DNA of 20,341 nucleotides from a virus. Under the pieces are notes generated by a model. It was given only the letters and a program-made list of their open reading frames with translations, did not search any database and was not told where the DNA came from. Below are positions 1 to 14,295 of this stretch, piece after piece. The stretch spans positions 1 through 20,341 of IMG/VR virus record IMGVR_UViG_3300022665_000975. The stretch is one strand, 5' to 3'. Made by a program: the position numbers and the translations under genes. The number at the start of each line of letters is the position of its first letter. The stretch's first letter is position 1.

Positions 1-1170
1 CTTGTCCCGCAGGTTCCTGCGCTGAAGGTCGCCTCCCTAGCAAGAGAAGCCCGCAGCGATATATATCTTCGACATGTTCCTCTCTTACTCGTCCGTGAAT
101 TCGCCAGGACAAAAGGTAACGGGCCGATTGTGGAGCAGACATTATTCGATGTTATCCAACGAGCTGACGAACTCACAGAATTCCTCGCTATTTATTGGAA
201 GGATGGTAAGACTCCTATCGCGAACGCCGTGAAGAGAGGTCTTGCACGAGCCTTCAATAAATTCAACACATACCAGCTTGCCAAGTATAACAGGCCAGAG
301 GGAATCAAACTTCGAGACGTCCTATTCCTCTGTCACGCGAAGCCGGACGGCGATCAACAGACAGAGGATTGGAAGAACCTAGTTGAGGGTACGTTGCCGT
401 CCCCAGATACCTGGGAGAGCAATTTAGTTGCAGGCAAAGACAAAAAGGAAACTTTCACACGACTCTTGCAGGAGAATAAGTTGGGCGGCCTTGCTGTCCT
501 ACGGAATTTGCGTCTGATGACTCAGATTGGTGTGGACGAAAATTTAATCGTAAACAGATTGAAGATGGGCATCAAAAAAGCCTTTCCTTATCGGTTTGTG
601 ACCGCTGCACGTTATAATCCAAACTTAGAACGTCACATTGAAGACGCTATGTTTTTAGCTTCTATTGAGCTTTCTGTCATTTCAGGCAAGACTGGCTTGC
701 TGGTTGACGTTAGTGGAAGCATGAGGAACACAGTAAGCGAGAGATCTGAAGCCACCCGAATGGATGTTGCCAGTGCTTTAGCAATTCATCTTTCAGAGAA
801 ATGTAAGCATTTAAGAGTCGCAACGTTCTCAGAGCATCTCGTAATAATTCCAGCACGGCGCGGCTTTGCGCTCCGAGACATTATCACGACTTCGCAACAA
901 CACTCTTCTACCTATCTCAAGGCTGCTCTCATAGAACTTCACGATAATCACCAATGGAACAGTCTCGAACGTGTAGTCGTGATTACTGACGAGCAATCAC
1001 ACGATGGAGTTAGAACGGGATGGGCACCCAAAAGCTACATGATTAACGTAGCACCTCATCAATATGGTGTAAGCTATGGAAATGGTTGGACACACATTGA
1101 TGGTTGGAGTGAGCGTGTTGTAGACTACATGCTGGCATGTGAAGATCTTGAAAATGGTGGAGAAAGATGA
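1..1170 (+). CDS. rsr: Ro60/Rsr-like TROVE-vWA RNA-binding protein, 5' end outside window
   Basis: The frame ending at 1170 is open back to base 1, and the residues before the GTG at 130 (for example LRHVPLLLVREFAR) fit the N-terminal part of a TROVE domain, so the gene is truncated by the window edge and does not start at 130. The visible 389 residues carry TROVE helical repeats (about 1-230) and a von Willebrand A domain with an intact metal site: DVSGS at 236-240, Thr304 and Asp330 in ITDE. In animals and bacteria Ro60/Rsr is a ring that binds Y RNAs in its outer surface and misfolded RNA ends in its hole; in Deinococcus it works with the nuclease PNPase. Structured RNA units lie just downstream (1375-1885), which suggests a phage-made Ro particle. 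The next gene overlaps by ATGA. Family assignment is firm; the role in the phage is inference. Confidence 0.93.
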   Translation, partial: LVPQVPALKVASLAREARSDIYLRHVPLLLVREFARTKGNGPIVEQTLFDVIQRADELTEFLAIYWKDGKTPIANAVKRGLARAFNKFNTYQLAKYNRPEGIKLRDVLFLCHAKPDGDQQTEDWKNLVEGTLPSPDTWESNLVAGKDKKETFTRLLQENKLGGLAVLRNLRLMTQIGVDENLIVNRLKMGIKKAFPYRFVTAARYNPNLERHIEDAMFLASIELSVISGKTGLLVDVSGSMRNTVSERSEATRMDVASALAIHLSEKCKHLRVATFSEHLVIIPARRGFALRDIITTSQQHSSTYLKAALIELHDNHQWNSLERVVVITDEQSHDGVRTGWAPKSYMINVAPHQYGVSYGNGWTHIDGWSERVVDYMLACEDLENGGER

Positions 1171-1374: not shown

Positions 1375-1488
1375 AAGTGTTGCTGAGATTTAGTATAATT
1401 ACTAGATGTTTTTGAAAATGATAACTTGTTTTCAGGTTACTAAACCGACATCCAGTAAATCCTACCCCGGATATCTCAGCAACAGCTT
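1375..1488 (+). ncRNA. Structured RNA unit 1 (candidate Y-RNA-like)
   Basis: A perfect 12-bp helix joins 1378-1389 (TGTTGCTGAGAT) to 1473-1484, and three more pairs (1375-1377 with 1486-1488) extend it across a single bulged G at 1485. Inside are a hairpin 1391-1404 (TAGTA/TACTA), a helix 1405-1409 with 1448-1452 (GATGT/ACATC) that encloses two hairpins (1413-1434, TGAAAA/TTTTCA; 1435-1446, GGTT/AACC), and a hairpin 1459-1472 (ATCC/GGAT). No credible reading frame covers it. A long end-to-end helix with a bulge and a branched interior is the general plan of a Y RNA, and the Ro60 gene is just upstream. No Ro60-binding consensus or T-loop was found here, so the class is inferred from structure and neighbours. 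Confidence 0.5.
1406..1420 (+). repeat. Direct repeat box ATGTTTTTGARAATG, copy 1
   Basis: The 15-mer ATGTTTTTGAAAATG at 1406-1420 recurs at 1580-1594 with one mismatch (GAGAATG), and the shorter TTTTTGA core appears again at 1735-1741 at the head of the tRNA-like unit. Copy 1 lies inside RNA unit 1, while copies 2 and 3 lie at the 5' edges of units 3 and 4. It may be a processing site or a relic of duplication. Confidence 0.5.
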
Positions 1489-1578
1489 CAGCCTACCTGG
1501 TACGGCTCAGAGAAAGAAAGCGCACGCTTTAAATCGCGTTGTGTAGTCTCCTGACTCTCTGCTAACTAGGTAGGCTGA
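1488..1578 (+). ncRNA. Structured RNA unit 2 (candidate Y-RNA-like)
   Basis: A 14-bp terminal helix pairs 1488-1501 with 1565-1578 (core CAGCCTACCT/AGGTAGGCTG, one G-U pair). Inside, 1508-1513 pairs with 1556-1561 (CAGAGA/TCTCTG) and encloses hairpins 1517-1530 (AAAGC/GCTTT) and 1545-1556 (AGTC/GACT; this one shares base 1556 with the enclosing helix). The unit abuts unit 1, sharing base 1488 in the two extended helices, which suggests one precursor cut into pieces or one larger folded RNA. The helices are too long for chance, but there is no sequence match I can name. Confidence 0.5.
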
Positions 1579-1579
1579 T

Positions 1580-1594
1580 ATGTTTTTGAGAATG
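1580..1594 (+). repeat. Direct repeat box ATGTTTTTGARAATG, copy 2
   Basis: Second copy of the box described at 1406-1420, differing by one base (G for A). It sits in the linker between RNA units 2 and 3 and runs two bases into the terminal helix of unit 3. Confidence 0.5.
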
Positions 1595-1729
1595 CGCTGG
1601 AGTCTAAATATAAGGCTACCCTCGGCTGCATTGTTTCGGTTGAGGTAGTCAGGGCACACCGTGAGGGAGTAGGGCGATTTAGTCCGATGGGGTCATCCAT
1701 GAACTAGTTAGTGGAACCCTGCCAGCGCA
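1593..1729 (+). ncRNA. Structured RNA unit 3 (candidate Y-RNA-like)
   Basis: An 8-bp perfect helix pairs 1593-1600 (TGCGCTGG) with 1722-1729, and a U run (1583-1587) faces an A run (1731-1734) beyond it. Inside, GGCTACC near 1614-1620 can pair with GGTAGTC near 1634-1640, and a broken helix near 1690-1720 pairs GGGT with ACCC and TCCA with TGGA. There is no good open frame. Internal helices are less certain than in the other units, and the terminal helix alone is weaker evidence. Confidence 0.4.
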
Positions 1730-1734
1730 GAAAA

Positions 1735-1885
1735 TTTTTGATACTGGAGGCAGCGTGGAAGGACATGCATGGCCCAACAGTCTGTCCTCGTTGCGGATCG
1801 CCTTCCGCACAGGTGCACGAGTCTTCTAGGATCGAGAAGATCGAGCTGGCAGAAGCCGGTTTCGAGTCCGGTCCTCCAGCAAAAA
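1735..1885 (+). ncRNA. tRNA-like structured RNA unit 4 (candidate Y RNA / tRNA mimic)
   Basis: The geometry copies a tRNA: 7-bp acceptor 1744-1750 with 1873-1879 (CTGGAGG/CCTCCAG), a two-base linker CA, a 4-bp D stem GCGT/ATGC (1753-1756, 1765-1768) with a GG-containing 8-base loop, and a T arm GCCGG/CCGGT (1855-1859, 1868-1872) with loop TTTCGAGT, directly before the acceptor 3' strand. The T loop has 8 bases, not 7. In place of an anticodon arm there are 86 bases (1769-1854) with hairpins 1792-1809 (TGCGGA/TCCGCA) and 1822-1840 (TCTTCT/AGAAGA). The acceptor continues past an ATA bulge into TTTTTG/CAAAAA (1735-1740, 1880-1885), unlike a charged tRNA, and no CCA is encoded. tRNA mimicry is known for bacterial YrlA Y RNAs. 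The call as an RNA is good; the Y RNA label is inferred. Confidence 0.65.
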
Positions 1886-1889
1886 CATT

Positions 1890-2132
1890 ATGCCAGAACA
1901 AACTCTCGAAGAAACAAAAAATTTTCAGTTTCGAAATATTCCTGGAGATCTTCATTACAAATGGAAAATTATATCTGTATTTGAGGGCAAATCCATGGAG
2001 GAAGTTGGTCTTGAAGCAATAGCAATACATGTCTTAAAATTGATGAAGGAGCGTGGAGAAGATATAAAAGAAATGGCTCAAAGTTTAAGTGAGGATGTAG
2101 ATAATAAAGCACCTCTGCAGACAGAAGAATGA
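1890..2132 (+). CDS. Small protein, possible ribbon-helix-helix DNA-binding
   Basis: 80 residues. The stretch FQFRNIPGDLHYKWKI (about 12-27) followed by a SMEEVGLEAIAIHVLKLM helix has the strand-helix-helix spacing of Arc/CopG-type proteins, so a ribbon-helix-helix fold is plausible, but the match is by eye and weak. The ATG lies five bases after the last tRNA-like unit and has no clear ribosome site, so its translation may depend on processing of that RNA. Its stop overlaps the next start (ATGA). Confidence 0.65.
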   Translation: MPEQTLEETKNFQFRNIPGDLHYKWKIISVFEGKSMEEVGLEAIAIHVLKLMKERGEDIKEMAQSLSEDVDNKAPLQTEE

Positions 2133-5588: not shown

Positions 5589-5684
5589 TCTCTTCAAATA
5601 ATAACAACAAACAAACAAACAAACATGTCTATTTTATTAACAAACCAACATCAATATCAGCACAAACAAACTGGAGGAAAACCT
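5589..5684 (+). other. A/C-rich leader with CAAA tandem repeat before the HNH gene
   Basis: The bases after the ATPase stop are almost free of G and contain CAAA four times in a row at 5608-5623. An ATG at 5625 is in frame with the HNH gene, but its first 20 codons are low-complexity, and a proper ribosome site (CTGGAGGAAAACCT) precedes the ATG at 5685. This looks like an unstructured leader and not coding sequence. A similar A/C-rich leader lies at 11799-11837. Confidence 0.5.
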
Positions 5685-6326
5685 ATGGGAGAGCCACGGG
5701 AACAACGTATGAATTCACCTGGGCCGAACGAGATTGAGATTTGGAGGCCAATTGAAGATTTTCCTGACTATGAAGTGTCGTCTTTTGGTAAAGTTCGTTC
5801 CTGTAAAATTCAAGGATCTCCGTGGCTAAAAGGTCCATGGAGAATTCTGAGTCTCAAAGGTAAATCAGGTTACAAAAAAGATTATATCCATGTTCATCTT
5901 TATCAAGGAAAGAGTAAAAAGAAACTCTGCGTTAAGTTTTACATTCATACTCTTGTCGCACGGGCTTTTATTGGACCTGCACCAACACCGAGTCATGTTG
6001 TAAATCACGATGATCTCAATAAAGAAAACAACTACTACGGCAACCTGGAGTGGGTCACGAAATCTGAAGATTGGAAACATGCCTTCAAAGCAGGACGAAC
6101 TCTCGGACATACAGATTCTAAGGGAGAGAAGAACGTACATGCCAAATTGACTGAAGAGCAAGTACTGGAGATTAGGAGGATTTGGAAAGAAAGTTCAAAA
6201 TACTCGAAGCGAATACGAATGAATACAACGAGGATAATGACACAGAAAGACATCGCAGAGAAATTTAACGTGTCAGAACACTTAATCCAGAGAGTCTGTA
6301 TCAGGGAAACTTGGAAACACATTTAA
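5685..6326 (+). CDS. NUMOD4-HNH homing endonuclease 1
   Basis: 213 residues from ATG 5685. Order of parts: NUMOD4 (EIWRPIEDFPDYEVSSFGKV, about 18-37), HNH core (VVNHDDLNKENN ... NLEWVT, about 105-130) and a C-terminal helix-turn-helix (AKLTEEQVLEI ... DIAEKFNVSEHLIQRV). Free-standing enzymes of this kind cut DNA lacking the gene and spread into it; they are common in phages. It separates two recombination genes (Sak4-like and DUF669-like) that are usually adjacent, which fits an insertion. It resembles the second copy at 13693-14295 and shares the ending [RK]xTW[KR]HI. Confidence 0.88.
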   Translation: MGEPREQRMNSPGPNEIEIWRPIEDFPDYEVSSFGKVRSCKIQGSPWLKGPWRILSLKGKSGYKKDYIHVHLYQGKSKKKLCVKFYIHTLVARAFIGPAPTPSHVVNHDDLNKENNYYGNLEWVTKSEDWKHAFKAGRTLGHTDSKGEKNVHAKLTEEQVLEIRRIWKESSKYSKRIRMNTTRIMTQKDIAEKFNVSEHLIQRVCIRETWKHI

Positions 6327-8820: not shown

Positions 8821-9420
8821 ATGCTGACGTTAGTATATGAAGGTTATCTCTACTATGAGATTTGCCGAGCTTGTCACGGAATTTTGAGACCACCGAACAT
8901 TGAATGTCCAGTATGTTTGAAACCGTTTGATGAATGTAGAAAGCTGAGGATTCCAAAGATGAGTAAAGAGAAAAAAGAGACAATCCTTGAGAAGGCTGAA
9001 CGAATTGTGATGAAAGATCGTGAAGAGATGTACGGTCATCCTAAGGATAATCATGGGTGTACGGCAGCAATGTGGACTGCATACATTATACGAAAGCTCG
9101 AAGTAACTGGACCTGGTAGGGAATTCAGTTTCGATGCCGAAGACGTCTGTTTCTTAAACATCCTCCAAAAAATCTCTCGCTGTGCGAACACAATCACGAA
9201 AGACAATTTGGTCGATATCGCTGGTTGGGCACGTTGTGTTGAAAGAATCATGGATGGTTTAGGTAATAAAGATGAAGATGAGGGTATTCAGCATGCTTTT
9301 ATTGCAAATGTTGAAGGCGGACAGAGAGATATATGCGAACGATGTCGTCAACCGAAATCTCATCATTTTCATTACAACATGGCACGTCACTCAGTAGAAG
9401 CAGAAGGTAACAGAGTGTGA
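8821..9420 (+). CDS. DUF6378-type protein with N- and C-terminal cysteine motifs
   Basis: 199 residues. The middle (about 58-150) has the DUF6378 pattern seen in many phages: KDREEMYGHPKDNHG, an aromatic-rich helix, DAEDVCFLNILQKISR, then DNLVDIAGWARCVERI. A zinc ribbon precedes it (CRAC ... CPVC) and a CERC with several His follows it. The core is an all-helical phage family; a MazG-like nucleotide hydrolase role is sometimes suspected but not shown here. An internal ATG at 8959 would drop the N-terminal ribbon, and the 8821 start lacks a ribosome site, so the longer form is likely but not certain. It overlaps the polymerase gene by GTGA. Confidence 0.75.
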   Translation: MLTLVYEGYLYYEICRACHGILRPPNIECPVCLKPFDECRKLRIPKMSKEKKETILEKAERIVMKDREEMYGHPKDNHGCTAAMWTAYIIRKLEVTGPGREFSFDAEDVCFLNILQKISRCANTITKDNLVDIAGWARCVERIMDGLGNKDEDEGIQHAFIANVEGGQRDICERCRQPKSHHFHYNMARHSVEAEGNRV

Positions 9421-11798
9421 CTCATGCTCTCACTCCCGAACACTTATCCCAAATCCCCTATCACGTTGGCCCATTAGATGCCAAGATATGTTTCGTGGGC
9501 GAAAGCCCTGGTGTTGATGAAATTGCTGACGATCAAAGGAGACCATTCGTCGGTAAGTCTGGACAACTATTCAGAAAATGGTGTGCTAACGCAGGCATCA
9601 ATTTTGACGATTGTTACGTCACCAACCTCCTCAAAGAACACCCGCCCGGAAATAAATTCGCACAATTCGTAAACGAGAATCCTCAAATCCTCCTAACCCA
9701 TACCAAACTTCTTGCTGCAGAGCTCTCTCTTTTAACAAACGTTAATGTGATTGTCCCACTTGGGAATAGCTCTATGATGCCTATTTGTGGTAAACAGGGC
9801 ATCATGGCTTGGCGTGGCTCAATTCTTCCTGCAACGATGAAAACAATCAAGGGCAAGAAGTGTATTCCAGCACTTCACCCTGCTGGAATCATGAGACAAT
9901 GGAAGACACGAATTTCTCTCATGGAAGACCTCAAACGTATAAAAGGAGACGGTGAATTTGCAGATTTTCGACTGCCTAAACGAAATCTTATAATCCGTCC
10001 AAAGTTTGACGTAGTAATAGAATTTCTAACACGACTTCTTGATGAGAAAAAGATCGTGTCTGTAGATACAGAAACGCGTCGAGGGACAGGCATTATTGCA
10101 AGTATACAGTTTTGTAACGACACAGTCAACGCTTTGTGCGTGCCATTTCAATATGCACAAGGTACAAGTTATTGGCCTCTCGATCAAGAGGTAATTATTT
10201 GGAAACTCATATCCCAAGTCTTATATGGCCTATCGTTGGTTGGTCAAAATTTCCTGATGTTCGATATTTTTATCTTTTGGATCAATGGATTAGATCCCTG
10301 GAAAATATTAAAGAATGTAGTGTTTGATACAATGGAGGGTTTTCAGTGTATCCAGCCAGAATTACCAAAGAACCTTGGTTTTCTTACATCCATTTTTACA
10401 AGAGAGCCATTTTTTAAGTCTGAAGGTAAAGAAGGAAAGCGTAAAGAATGGGCACCCTCAGTCAGTGAGGATTCTTTTTGGGGGTATGGATGCAAAGACG
10501 TTCTTGTTACTTTAGAAATCTTTCCTCAAGTTTTACAGGAGCTAAAGGATGAGGGGCTGTATGAATTTTATAAGAAACGTTATATGGGGATGGCAAGTCG
10601 TCGATTAGGGATGTCTTTTAGAGGTATGCTCATAGATGAAAAGATCAGAAAAAAATTAAAGCTCAAGGTTGCTAAAGACGCCATAAGATATCAATCTAAA
10701 CTAAACATCCTAATTGATCGTAAGCTCAATGTCTATTCTAGCACTCAAATGAAAAAGCTTCTGTACGACGATATGAAGCTCCCGAAACAATATGATAAGA
10801 ACACTAGGGCCGTGACGTGTGGTGAGGATGCGATCCTTAAACTCTCAGCTCTTCATCCCTCTAAGGTCTTCGACCTCATCCTTAGAATAAGGAATCTTCG
10901 TACCTGCAACTCAAATTTTGTTGAGGTCAAAACAGATTCCGACGGGCGCGTTCGCAGCACTTACGGCTTCACTGAGACAGGACGTTTTACTTCTTCTAAG
11001 TGTCCAATCGGTACAGGAAGAAACATGCAAAATTGGACACCCGAAATGCGGAAAATGTTAAGATCCGATGACGATGATCATGTGTTTGTAGAAATGGATC
11101 TATCACAAGCTGAAGCACGAGTTGTTGCATGGAAATCACGAGCGGTTAAATTGATTGGAGACTTTTTGAATGGCGTCGATGTCCATATTGTTACTGCCAG
11201 CAATGTATTTAGTGTATTGTTTGCTGTCGTCAGTCCTACTGAACGATACACCGGCAAGCGTGTGAACCATGCTGCAAATTATGATATGCGTGCAGAAAAA
11301 TTCGCGATGGTCTTCAACAAGGATGCGTCTGACAATGGTGTAGAGCTTATGAGTATCACTACAGCCACAATGATAATGCAGAAACATCACAATGCGAATC
11401 CTCATATAAGACAGGTGTATCATAAGGAGATACGTGATGAAGTATCTAAAACTAAGAGAATGTATAATATATTCGGACGGAGAATGGTCTTTCTGGACCG
11501 ACTCGGCCCTGATCTTTTTAGGGCTGCTTACGGCTGGTACGCACAATCGATTGTTGGAGACCTCACTAACGTCATTTTCGATGCCATTGGAGATCGAATC
11601 ACCGTTGCGAATCAAGGTCATGATTCGATCATTGCTCATTGTCACAAAAATGAAGTGAAAGAAGTTTGCAAGATCATGTGGAACGAGGCGCAAATACCGT
11701 TGATGATTGAAGATCGAGAACTGATTGTCCCGTGTGAATTCAAAACAGGAACGTATTGGGGTGACATGAAAGAGTATGTGTATGAGGAGGCAGCGTAA
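9417..11798 (+). CDS. Uracil-DNA glycosylase-like domain fused to family A DNA polymerase with 3'-5' exonuclease
   Basis: 793 residues from GTG 9417, overlapping the previous stop. Residues 20-175 are a family 4-like uracil-DNA glycosylase (GESPG 28-32, PFVG 43-46, HPAG 154-157), without the usual CxxC and with Glu for Cys in LLKEHPPGN, so probably no iron-sulfur cluster. Next is a proofreading exonuclease (DTE at 217-219, GQNFLMFD, YGCKD). The polymerase has TGRFTSS, motif A DLSQAEAR (Asp561), motif B R610-YTG-K614 ... H618 ... Y622 and motif C HDS (Asp736). In E. coli numbering Arg754, Lys758 and Tyr766 are kept but Phe762 is His and Gly767 is Asp. It is the likely replicative polymerase of this phage. 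Confidence 0.93.
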   Translation: MTHALTPEHLSQIPYHVGPLDAKICFVGESPGVDEIADDQRRPFVGKSGQLFRKWCANAGINFDDCYVTNLLKEHPPGNKFAQFVNENPQILLTHTKLLAAELSLLTNVNVIVPLGNSSMMPICGKQGIMAWRGSILPATMKTIKGKKCIPALHPAGIMRQWKTRISLMEDLKRIKGDGEFADFRLPKRNLIIRPKFDVVIEFLTRLLDEKKIVSVDTETRRGTGIIASIQFCNDTVNALCVPFQYAQGTSYWPLDQEVIIWKLISQVLYGLSLVGQNFLMFDIFIFWINGLDPWKILKNVVFDTMEGFQCIQPELPKNLGFLTSIFTREPFFKSEGKEGKRKEWAPSVSEDSFWGYGCKDVLVTLEIFPQVLQELKDEGLYEFYKKRYMGMASRRLGMSFRGMLIDEKIRKKLKLKVAKDAIRYQSKLNILIDRKLNVYSSTQMKKLLYDDMKLPKQYDKNTRAVTCGEDAILKLSALHPSKVFDLILRIRNLRTCNSNFVEVKTDSDGRVRSTYGFTETGRFTSSKCPIGTGRNMQNWTPEMRKMLRSDDDDHVFVEMDLSQAEARVVAWKSRAVKLIGDFLNGVDVHIVTASNVFSVLFAVVSPTERYTGKRVNHAANYDMRAEKFAMVFNKDASDNGVELMSITTATMIMQKHHNANPHIRQVYHKEIRDEVSKTKRMYNIFGRRMVFLDRLGPDLFRAAYGWYAQSIVGDLTNVIFDAIGDRITVANQGHDSIIAHCHKNEVKEVCKIMWNEAQIPLMIEDRELIVPCEFKTGTYWGDMKEYVYEEAA

Positions 11799-12439: not shown

Positions 12440-13685
12440 GTGTGTAAAAAAATCCTGGATTCAAGAATATCTCAAATACACAGCTGGTCAAGAATCCCCA
12501 GAACTGTTTCATCTTTGGACAGCGATTACTATTCTTGCAGGAGTGGTCCGTAGAAATGTCTGGTTAAAGTTCGGGGGCGGTAAGATAATACCAAATTTTT
12601 ACACAGTCTTAGTATCACCGACTGGAGTATGTAGAAAACAAGCTGCCATCGATGAAGGAACAAACATGCTAAGAGAGGTTGGAAATCTTAAAATTCTTCA
12701 CGAGAAAGTAACGCCGGAAGGTCTCATATCTTATTTACGTTTTGATTCAGTAAAAAAAATTGAAGTTGAAGGTAAACCAGTCATTGATGAGGAATGTGTA
12801 GTTTTTATACAATCATCAGAACTCGCCAATTTTATAGGATCTACTCAATATTCAGAACAATTACGAGAGCTGATGACTGGTCTATGGGACAACCATACGA
12901 ATTGGGACTACACAACACAGTCACGAGGGAAAGAACCACTCAGAAATGTAAATGTCAACTTTCTCGGTGCAAGCAATCCTGAGTGGCTCGCAAAAGGTTT
13001 CAAGGAGGATTCTTTTGGGGGAGGATTTATTGGCCGAATCATATTCATATTTCAAAATCGCCGTATTAAGGTTGCATGGCCAAAAAAGACACCGGAACAA
13101 ATATCACTTCGTAACCTATTAGTAATGGACCTACAACATATATCTACACTTCGTGGCTCCTTCAAGGTAACTGATAAAACGAGAGACTTTTTTGAAGACT
13201 GGTACATGGCTTTTGAACCAGACATGAGTGGTCGAATGGTCGGCTACCTTCAAAGGAAGCATGTTCACATGCTAAAACTAGCAATGCTACTATCTGTTGC
13301 TGAGAACGACGAATTAGTCATAAGAGAAGGACATATAAAAGCTGCCAAAATATTTCTCGAACAGATAGAAGATTTGATGCCTGAGGCTTTTGCATTTGTT
13401 GGAGCCACCAACGAAGCTAAGATTGCACAACGAATTATTGAGATATTAGTCGATAATGCTGGACTAATATCCCAACAAAGTCTCCTCAATGAAATTCGAC
13501 GCATGATTAAGAGTAAGAGAGAGTTTGACAACATTATTGAAGTTCTAGCTGAATCAGGTATAATACTTTTTGCAAAAAAGGATAATGTTCTGTACTATTT
13601 TTTGACTGATGCGTATCTTGAGGGCAGACTGGGACGGATTAAGGAGAAAAAAACTTCCGACAAAAGCAGAGATAAAGGAGGATAA
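12384..13685 (+). CDS. DUF3987-type primase/helicase-like ATPase
   Basis: 433 residues. The P-loop region is LVSPTGVCRKQAA (77-88): where this family often has GPxGxxRK[ST], the final Ser/Thr is Gln, so nucleotide binding may be altered. After it come an acidic strand (VVFIQSSELANF), LRELMTGLWDNHTNWDY, and the strongly typical LGASNPEWLAKGF ... GGGFIGRIIFIF; the C-terminus looks like a winged helix. DUF3987 proteins act in phage replication next to the polymerase, as here. The start at 12384 overlaps the previous gene by 56 bases and has only a weak ribosome site, but no later start keeps the fold. Confidence 0.85.
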   Translation: MTDKLEEGKESKSKPKTGRCVKKSWIQEYLKYTAGQESPELFHLWTAITILAGVVRRNVWLKFGGGKIIPNFYTVLVSPTGVCRKQAAIDEGTNMLREVGNLKILHEKVTPEGLISYLRFDSVKKIEVEGKPVIDEECVVFIQSSELANFIGSTQYSEQLRELMTGLWDNHTNWDYTTQSRGKEPLRNVNVNFLGASNPEWLAKGFKEDSFGGGFIGRIIFIFQNRRIKVAWPKKTPEQISLRNLLVMDLQHISTLRGSFKVTDKTRDFFEDWYMAFEPDMSGRMVGYLQRKHVHMLKLAMLLSVAENDELVIREGHIKAAKIFLEQIEDLMPEAFAFVGATNEAKIAQRIIEILVDNAGLISQQSLLNEIRRMIKSKREFDNIIEVLAESGIILFAKKDNVLYYFLTDAYLEGRLGRIKEKKTSDKSRDKGG

Positions 13686-13692
13686 AAAAATA

Positions 13693-14295
13693 ATGACAAA
13701 TGTATATGAGAAGTCAGACTACGGGTTACGTACTTTGAAAAGTGAAGTCTGGAAACCAGTAAAAGGTTATGAAGGATTATACACAATTTCAAATTTTGGC
13801 CATATAAGATCATATCATATCAGAACACGAGGAAAGGCACTGAAATCCAGCTTATCAGGTGGATACCTTACGGTGCATTTACGTAAAAATGGAAAACGGA
13901 AACATGCACATGTACATAAACTTGTTGCTTTAGCATTCTTAGGAGATCCTCCTGCTCCAGAATATAATTATTATTTAAAGAGATATATTCTTTATATTGC
14001 CAACCATAAAGACGGAATCAAGACTAATAACAATACAGGAAACTTAGAATGGAAGACTGTAAGTGAGGATGCATTGCATGCTTATGCACTAGGGCTTCGA
14101 CATGCTAGTGGATGGACATATAATAAGGAAGGAGAAACGAATCCAAGTGCAAAATTAACAGAAGAAGACATCCCGAAGATAAGAAAATTAGTAGAATGTG
14201 ACAGACTCACATGCGAACAAGTAAGTGAGAGATTCCAAGTCACAAAGAGTACAATATCAAGGATCGTTAGAAGAAAAACATGGAGACATATTTAG
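13693..14295 (+). CDS. NUMOD4-HNH homing endonuclease 2
   Basis: 200 residues from ATG 13693, preceded by AAAGGAGG; the longer frame from 13609 runs inside the helicase gene. Parts in order: NUMOD4 (EVWKPVKGYEGLYTISNFGH, about 19-38), HNH (NHKDGIKTNNNTGNLEWKT, about 107-125) and a C-terminal helix-turn-helix (CEQVSERFQVTKSTISRI). It is a diverged relative of the enzyme at 5685-6326 and sits between the helicase gene and unrelated small genes, as expected for a mobile free-standing endonuclease. Confidence 0.88.
   Translation: MTNVYEKSDYGLRTLKSEVWKPVKGYEGLYTISNFGHIRSYHIRTRGKALKSSLSGGYLTVHLRKNGKRKHAHVHKLVALAFLGDPPAPEYNYYLKRYILYIANHKDGIKTNNNTGNLEWKTVSEDALHAYALGLRHASGWTYNKEGETNPSAKLTEEDIPKIRKLVECDRLTCEQVSERFQVTKSTISRIVRRKTWRHI

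Follow-up and report, generated by a model that had tools for sequence, protein, structure and literature searches.

The window analysed here, a whole IMG/VR virus record of 20,341 bases, opens with a Ro60 gene, its first open reading frame (ORF), whose 5′ end is truncated by the contig edge. Between a small ORF at 1167-1364 and an ORF starting at 1890 lies a non-coding gap of about 525 nt. This intergenic region, which as a whole folds with a z score of -6.5, is laid out as four tandem closed elements (E1-E4), the last of which is the RNA considered below, 0.6 kb downstream of the Ro60 gene.

1-1170, plus strand: Ro60 gene with TROVE and vWA domains (Pfam TROVE E 1.2e-12, vWA_Ro60 8e-6)
1378-1487, plus strand: E1, tandem structured element, folding z -6.6
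1487-1580, plus strand: E2, tandem structured element, folding z -6.6
1592-1728, plus strand: E3, tandem structured element, folding z -2.1
1744-1879, plus strand: E4, core of the family RNA in the order P1-P2-insert-P6-P1′ (covariance model R1, 59 bits, E 3.3e-12)
1890-2132, plus strand: small ORF starting 11 nt past the end of the RNA, which is thus in leader position

E1-E3 stand outside the family, the covariance model R1 (described below) matching nothing in 1378-1728. E1 and E2 are each closed by a stem of 12-14 bp; E2 appears Y RNA-like by eye (GGUACGG..CUGCUAACU), and our model of the Ro60-binding site has no match there. E3 is multibranched, with closing strands TGCGCTGG and CCAGCGCA, and shares GGGCACAC with the region at the equivalent place in another phage locus, L101, to which it is possibly homologous. 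A reading of 1365-1889 as one large ornate RNA was rejected: L101 has E4 and hints of E3, without E1 or E2. Elsewhere in the window, 9417-11798 encodes a DNA polymerase A with a uracil-DNA glycosylase domain fused to its N-terminus, and a related pair of ORFs (5625-6326 and 13609-14295) looks, judged from sequence, like NUMOD4/HNH homing endonucleases. Searches with the DNA polymerase and PDDEXK proteins found no sister phages.

Anatomy of the RNA

1735-1740 with 1880-1885, plus strand: extension of P1, TTTTTG with CAAAAA, an ATA bulge lying between it and P1 (from sequence)
1744-1750, plus strand: 5′ strand of P1, CTGGAGG, acceptor-like; pairs with 1873-1879, and all seven pairs covary in the family
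1751-1752, plus strand: linker J1/2, CA (in the family CG in 67/75, CA in 7/75)
1753-1768, plus strand: hairpin P2, D-arm-like, GCGT-GGAAGGAC-ATGC, strands 1753-1756 and 1765-1768; compensatory stem changes in the family
1769-1854, plus strand: variable insert of 86 nt at the place of the anticodon arm, its last base the conserved A (1854)
1781-1786 with 1848-1853, plus strand: helix B, TCTGTC with GGCAGA; family-wide excess of complementarity before the conserved A
1787-1821, plus strand: insert module, CTCGT-(hairpin 1792-1809)-CAGGTGC-ACGAG, 1787-1791 pairing with 1817-1821; common to L101 and L466
1822-1840, plus strand: insert hairpin TCTTCT/AGAAGA; in L101 and L466 a hairpin of other sequence occupies the same place
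1855-1872, plus strand: hairpin P6, T-arm-like, in all members and directly before P1′; GCCGG (1855-1859), 8-nt loop TTTCGAGT (1860-1867), CCGGT (1868-1872)
1873-1879, plus strand: 3′ strand of P1, CCTCCAG (from sequence and the R1 model)

The original prediction, made from this one sequence, had described acceptor-, D- and T-like arms, an 8-base T loop, the absence of an encoded CCA, an acceptor running on through an ATA bulge into TTTTTG/CAAAAA and, at the place of the anticodon arm, 86 bases holding two 6-bp hairpins. All of these are present, as confirmed base by base (insert hairpins 1792-1797/1804-1809 and 1822-1827/1835-1840). P2 becomes a 5-bp stem if G1757 and C1764 pair, which leaves the loop GAAGGA. 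Folding energy is by itself weak evidence for this architecture (z about -1.8 for E4 and -1.9 for 1725-1895), and in unconstrained minimum-energy folds of the isolated stretch other pairings are often preferred. What settles the fold at 1744-1879 is comparative evidence, namely the match to R1 and the pairing of P1.

A large family of phage RNAs

A single-sequence query from the window gave a weak match (E 0.36) in L051, a Ro60 phage in which the RNA lies downstream of TROVE as in the window; the reverse query retrieved the window at E 0.006, and a two-sequence profile led to a third Ro60 phage, L110 (E 0.009). A pattern scan of IMG/VR for the GTGGAAGGACA hairpin together with CCGG-N8-CCGG then returned at least 120 stretches, and among the matches listed 82/120 had the three helices under a relaxed test. 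P1 pairing was not part of this pattern; at fixed geometry, and among the matches listed, all seven positions of P1 paired in 70 of 82 distinct ones with an intact P2, against 2.4 with shuffled partners. A second, independent scan with the loop variant GATGGA had P1 paired in 40/48, against 4.4 when shuffled. The original prediction had named the loss of acceptor or T-arm pairs in homologues as evidence against itself; by these counts the pairs are instead retained, and by compensatory changes. In an alignment of 70 members (window not included), two-sided changes occur at each of the seven P1 pairs, 99% of the P1 cells are paired, and covariation scores 0.51, compared with 0.11 for shuffled and at most 0.10 for slid alignments. 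These members had been selected for at least 6/7 pairs in P1, and for this reason 70/82 against 2.4 is the unbiased figure.

The covariance model R1 was trained on those 70 other phage RNAs, with the window left out. Its sole match in the 20 kb is 1744-1879, with all P1, P2 and P6 pairs. R1 also matches L110 (E 4.5e-13) and, weakly and at the expected place, L101 (E 0.095), and yields 149 matches at E<1e-3 within member loci. The IMG/VR pattern scans brought together well over 100 phage RNAs on the same plan. Among 398 Pseudomonadota genomes the pattern scan gave two matches, the structure being absent from both, and R1 had no match on four genomes when the best 150 of thousands of candidates were scored. 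Neither the window nor the members match any family of Rfam 15; the element is unannotated in the named carrier phages, and searches of an open-access literature collection turned up no description of such a family. At the level of sequence comparison, this evidence shows the product of 1744-1879 to be a structured RNA belonging to a large phage family in which a constant frame carries an interchangeable insert. The family is widespread in bacteriophages and apparently unrecorded so far.

The frame consists of a P1 of variable sequence, a CG or CA linker, a P2 loop GAAGGA or GATGGA, the conserved A, and P6 with an 8-nt loop containing UCRAG. The search patterns set the P2 loop sequence, G-GA(A/T)GGA-C, and the P6 loop length; the linker, the conserved A and, in the second scan, the bases of the P6 loop were left free. 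Linker and loop lengths are constant in 75/75 members (loop lengths set by the search, linker length not), and the P6 loop mostly reads x-x-U-C-R-A-G-Y, with U-C-R-A in most members. In L101 the GG of the P2 loop is AG, and the UC of P6 is lost too. P1 exceeds 7 bp in 94/115 members and is exactly 7 bp in 21/115.

Modular inserts

The inserts range from 54 to 86 nt, and in most members their sequences are unrelated. In 20/72 members (5.4 expected) the 5-6 nt just preceding the conserved A have a complementary site upstream in the insert, and this was replicated in the second scan (14/42 against 2.9); from 4 nt further away there is little or no excess. Helix B therefore abuts P6. In L343, L409 and L406 the sequences are suggestive of a pseudoknot in which the loop of helix B could pair upstream. 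A different, H-type pseudoknot (CUGU/ACAG) was considered for the window insert and rejected: it is lost in L466, where the nested helix B fits, and a genome pattern scan for it gave chance-like matches in coding DNA.

The sequence CCTCGTT..ACAGGTGCACGAG is identical in the window, L101 and L466, the hairpin that it encloses varies, and the three inserts have the same order: CCTCGTT-hairpin-ACAGGTGCACGAG, a hairpin, helix B. In L466 this window-type insert is combined with a frame that has the other P2 loop. Some phages have two copies of the RNA (L339, L386, L309, L409); in L339 and L386 these are in tandem. Judged from these sequences, the inserts are modular, that of the window being one module among several. 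A second insert module (GACGGAGTAGACCC...ACCGATGCGCC...GGCTGGC) occurs in L315, L387, L484, L344 and L470, some of which have a P1 of 17 bp. By eye, tRNA-like or T-arm stretches also lie inside the inserts of L372:2024-2156, L354:11155-11283 and L334:1076-1203; ARAGORN called no tRNA there.

Genomic setting and transcription signals

The named carriers are Caulobacter phage DMCA, Pseudanabaena phage Pan3, Komagataeibacter phages phiKX1/2 and Acidovorax phage AP1 (R1 matches for loci L419-L424; phiKX2 by BLAST only), and plasmid records of Sinorhizobium and Roseomonas also carry the element. We saw no fixed neighbour gene and no association with defence genes or reverse transcriptases; the lone PADLOC RTasPolA match among the neighbours probably represents a polymerase of PolA type. 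Boxes resembling a -10 element end 3-12 nt upstream of P1 in 24 cases, against 3.3 per stretch of equal size elsewhere, and a -10 box plus a -35 box precedes P1 in 9 (against 1). A ribosome-binding site with a start codon follows within 70 nt in 45/114 members, compared with 15/112 controls, and a downstream T-run is present in only 8/114, so that a terminator is mostly absent. From these counts, the RNA tends to lie at the start of a transcript or in a leader.

One alternative reading is a cis-acting leader, riboswitch-like or mRNA-stabilising, in which a tRNA-shaped 5′ structure controls the next phage gene. The RNA indeed often lies between a promoter and a ribosome-binding site or right before a start codon, the ATG in the window being 11 nt past P1′, and downstream terminators are few. 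However, the genes that follow differ (polymerase, portal, terminase, RecT and others), many lie on the opposite strand (32/71, from crude gene calls), and the conserved bases are in loops rather than in an expression platform. As a complete account we consider such a leader possible, if on the unlikely side.

Somewhat harder to sustain, and in our judgement unlikely, is an RNA acting in trans, by which the phage would titrate or redirect host enzymes binding tRNA (anticodon nucleases, RNase P, the ribosome) and in which the insert would be the effector. It would accord with the enrichment of promoters right at P1, with tandem copies bearing unrelated inserts, and with the proposal that the tRNA-like domain of another RNA, YrlA, competitively inhibits an anticodon nuclease (PMC7790460). 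Against it, most members have no terminator, which speaks against a free-standing small RNA unless it is processed, and antisense matches of inserts to their own loci show no excess.

Most members are intergenic. At L466:2205-2570 an open frame surrounds the RNA, and the two halves of this frame resemble one small HTH-type protein, suggesting from sequence that the element may have inserted into a gene; no homologue of the frame without the insert was found. This case, and the conserved ends flanking a variable core, could point to an element acting at the DNA level or a mobile one (an attC-like folded site, a retron msr-msd, a small intron or a bypass element). We consider this improbable, given that the 5′ module is no inverted repeat of the 3′ module, that most members are intergenic with promoters abutting P1, and that, for the retron reading, the 111 nearest neighbours contain no Pfam reverse transcriptase domain.

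Relation to Ro60 and YrlA

YrlA (RF02553) is described as a circularly permuted tRNA on a Ro60-binding stem (Chen et al. 2014, as cited in PMC7790460). Like YrlA, the window RNA has D- and T-type arms similar to those of tRNA, does not decode, and is found in a Ro60 phage, and the original prediction had likened the two. That Ro60 is encoded just upstream, and that relatives carry YrlA, makes the comparison pertinent; membership of the YrlA class did not survive the searches. The Rfam YrlA model has no match in the window at E up to 5, and matches a positive control, phage Olaya, at E 3.5e-10. R2, a model of the Ro60-binding site built here, reaches at best E 1.4 in the window; in other Ro60 phages its E values are as low as 4e-17, including strong matches in L101 and L110 away from the family member.

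In relatives of the window's Ro60, arrays of Y RNAs lie beside the gene, mostly upstream, and many contain a permuted tRNA. There are 2-7 Y RNAs per phage Ro60 gene in L003, L005, L006, L007, L011, L080 and L101, with the Ro60-site consensus TGGYGNAG-N7-KTACTTC...CGYTTGTTCC; IMG/VR holds 435 such Ro60 loci, which would form a rich covariation set. For the window itself, the Y RNAs are probably located past the contig edge. The family RNA might serve the adjacent Ro60 as a Y RNA, a bound tRNA mimic that tethers or gates a nuclease. The proximity of the gene, the arrays in relatives, and the presence of a family member in two Ro60 phages, L101 and L110, argue for this; the blank YrlA and R2 searches and the unpermuted order of the window RNA, where relatives' YrlA is permuted, argue against it, as does the scarcity of Ro60, seen only at the window and L110 among 80 member and named-record loci (loci of at most 15 kb). 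We regard this reading as very improbable. Both types of RNA are present in L101 and in L110, so that two independent tRNA-like RNA designs can occur in Ro60 phages.

Comparison with tRNA and tRNA-shaped RNAs

Like tRNA (RF00005), the family RNA has the order acceptor-D-...-T with the T-arm abutting the acceptor, and a GG in the D-like loop (as G18G19) and UCRA in the T-like loop (as U55C56R57A58). Both pattern sets have the GG in every P2 loop, where the pattern fixed it, and the UC in most P6 loops, where it was free. The base after P1 is most often A (52/114). Unlike tRNA, the T-like loop has 8 nt rather than 7 throughout the members collected (in part a consequence of the search design), the U54 position is variable, C and G stand in place of U8 and A14, P1 is often longer than 7 bp, and there is no anticodon arm; CCA is absent from the window and present in 3/114 members. 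No tRNA or tmRNA model matches the window or the tested members (Rfam; ARAGORN at default for the window). Of the proposed tRNA mimicry, the order of the arms and the GG and UCRA bases thus hold, while the 7-nt T loop, U54, CCA and a match to a tRNA model do not, and on sequence grounds the resemblance is partial. A degenerate tRNA, a tRNA with an intron or a chance tRNA-like fold is hardly credible, since the only call (ARAGORN with introns, threshold lowered to 80%, a tRNA-Arg with a 48-nt intron) is absent at default settings and was rejected, Rfam tRNA has no match, the family is conserved without an anticodon arm, and P1 covariation excludes chance.

The RNA is akin to tmRNA (RF00023) in its tRNA-like ends and replaced anticodon arm; it differs in having a real P2 stem and no tag frame, long insert or CCA. 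As with mascRNA/menRNA and the tRNA-like structures of plant viruses, it is a viral or noncoding RNA with a tRNA shape, here, however, in DNA phages, with an internal variable module and no Rfam match. In the laboratory tRNA scaffold a foreign RNA is put into the anticodon arm. The family RNA likewise is a tRNA frame bearing an interchangeable insert, while being natural, phage-borne and different from tRNA in its loop consensus.

Discussion

The reading that we favour, with a confidence that stops just short of even, is that the RNA forms a platform resembling the tRNA elbow, located at the 5′ end of phage transcripts or close to it, read by host machinery and carrying a phage-specific insert. 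The loops of P2 and P6 would dock like the D and T loops of tRNA (GG with UC), and P6 would stack on P1, so that an elbow-like platform forms from which the insert would project in the position of an anticodon arm. Recognition or processing of this platform would probably fall to host machinery able to read the elbow and acceptor stack, with RNase P the first candidate, and this would protect or release the RNA; the insert would supply a phage-specific activity. L101, with both the GG and the UC altered, speaks for the docking. P1 is not sharply 7 bp, so that the family imposes no 12-bp ruler of RNase P, and this counts against the reading, as do the 8-nt T-like loop, the variable U54 position, the absence of tRNA and tmRNA model matches and the scarcity of terminators. 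An action in cis, as a leader on the downstream gene, is a prospect that we hold as evenly poised; one in trans, after release, is plausible at somewhat less than that.

This RNA class, which covaries strongly and occurs in well over a hundred phage contigs, adds a new component to phage biology. From the frame one can predict that an elbow forms by contacts between GG and UC, and the exchange of inserts points to a modular platform. It is conceivable, if doubtful at present, that this family of elbow mimics is a common platform for exchangeable RNA effector modules, much like a natural tRNA scaffold, docking on the host tRNA machinery (RNase P, the ribosome, anticodon nucleases) to the benefit of the phage.
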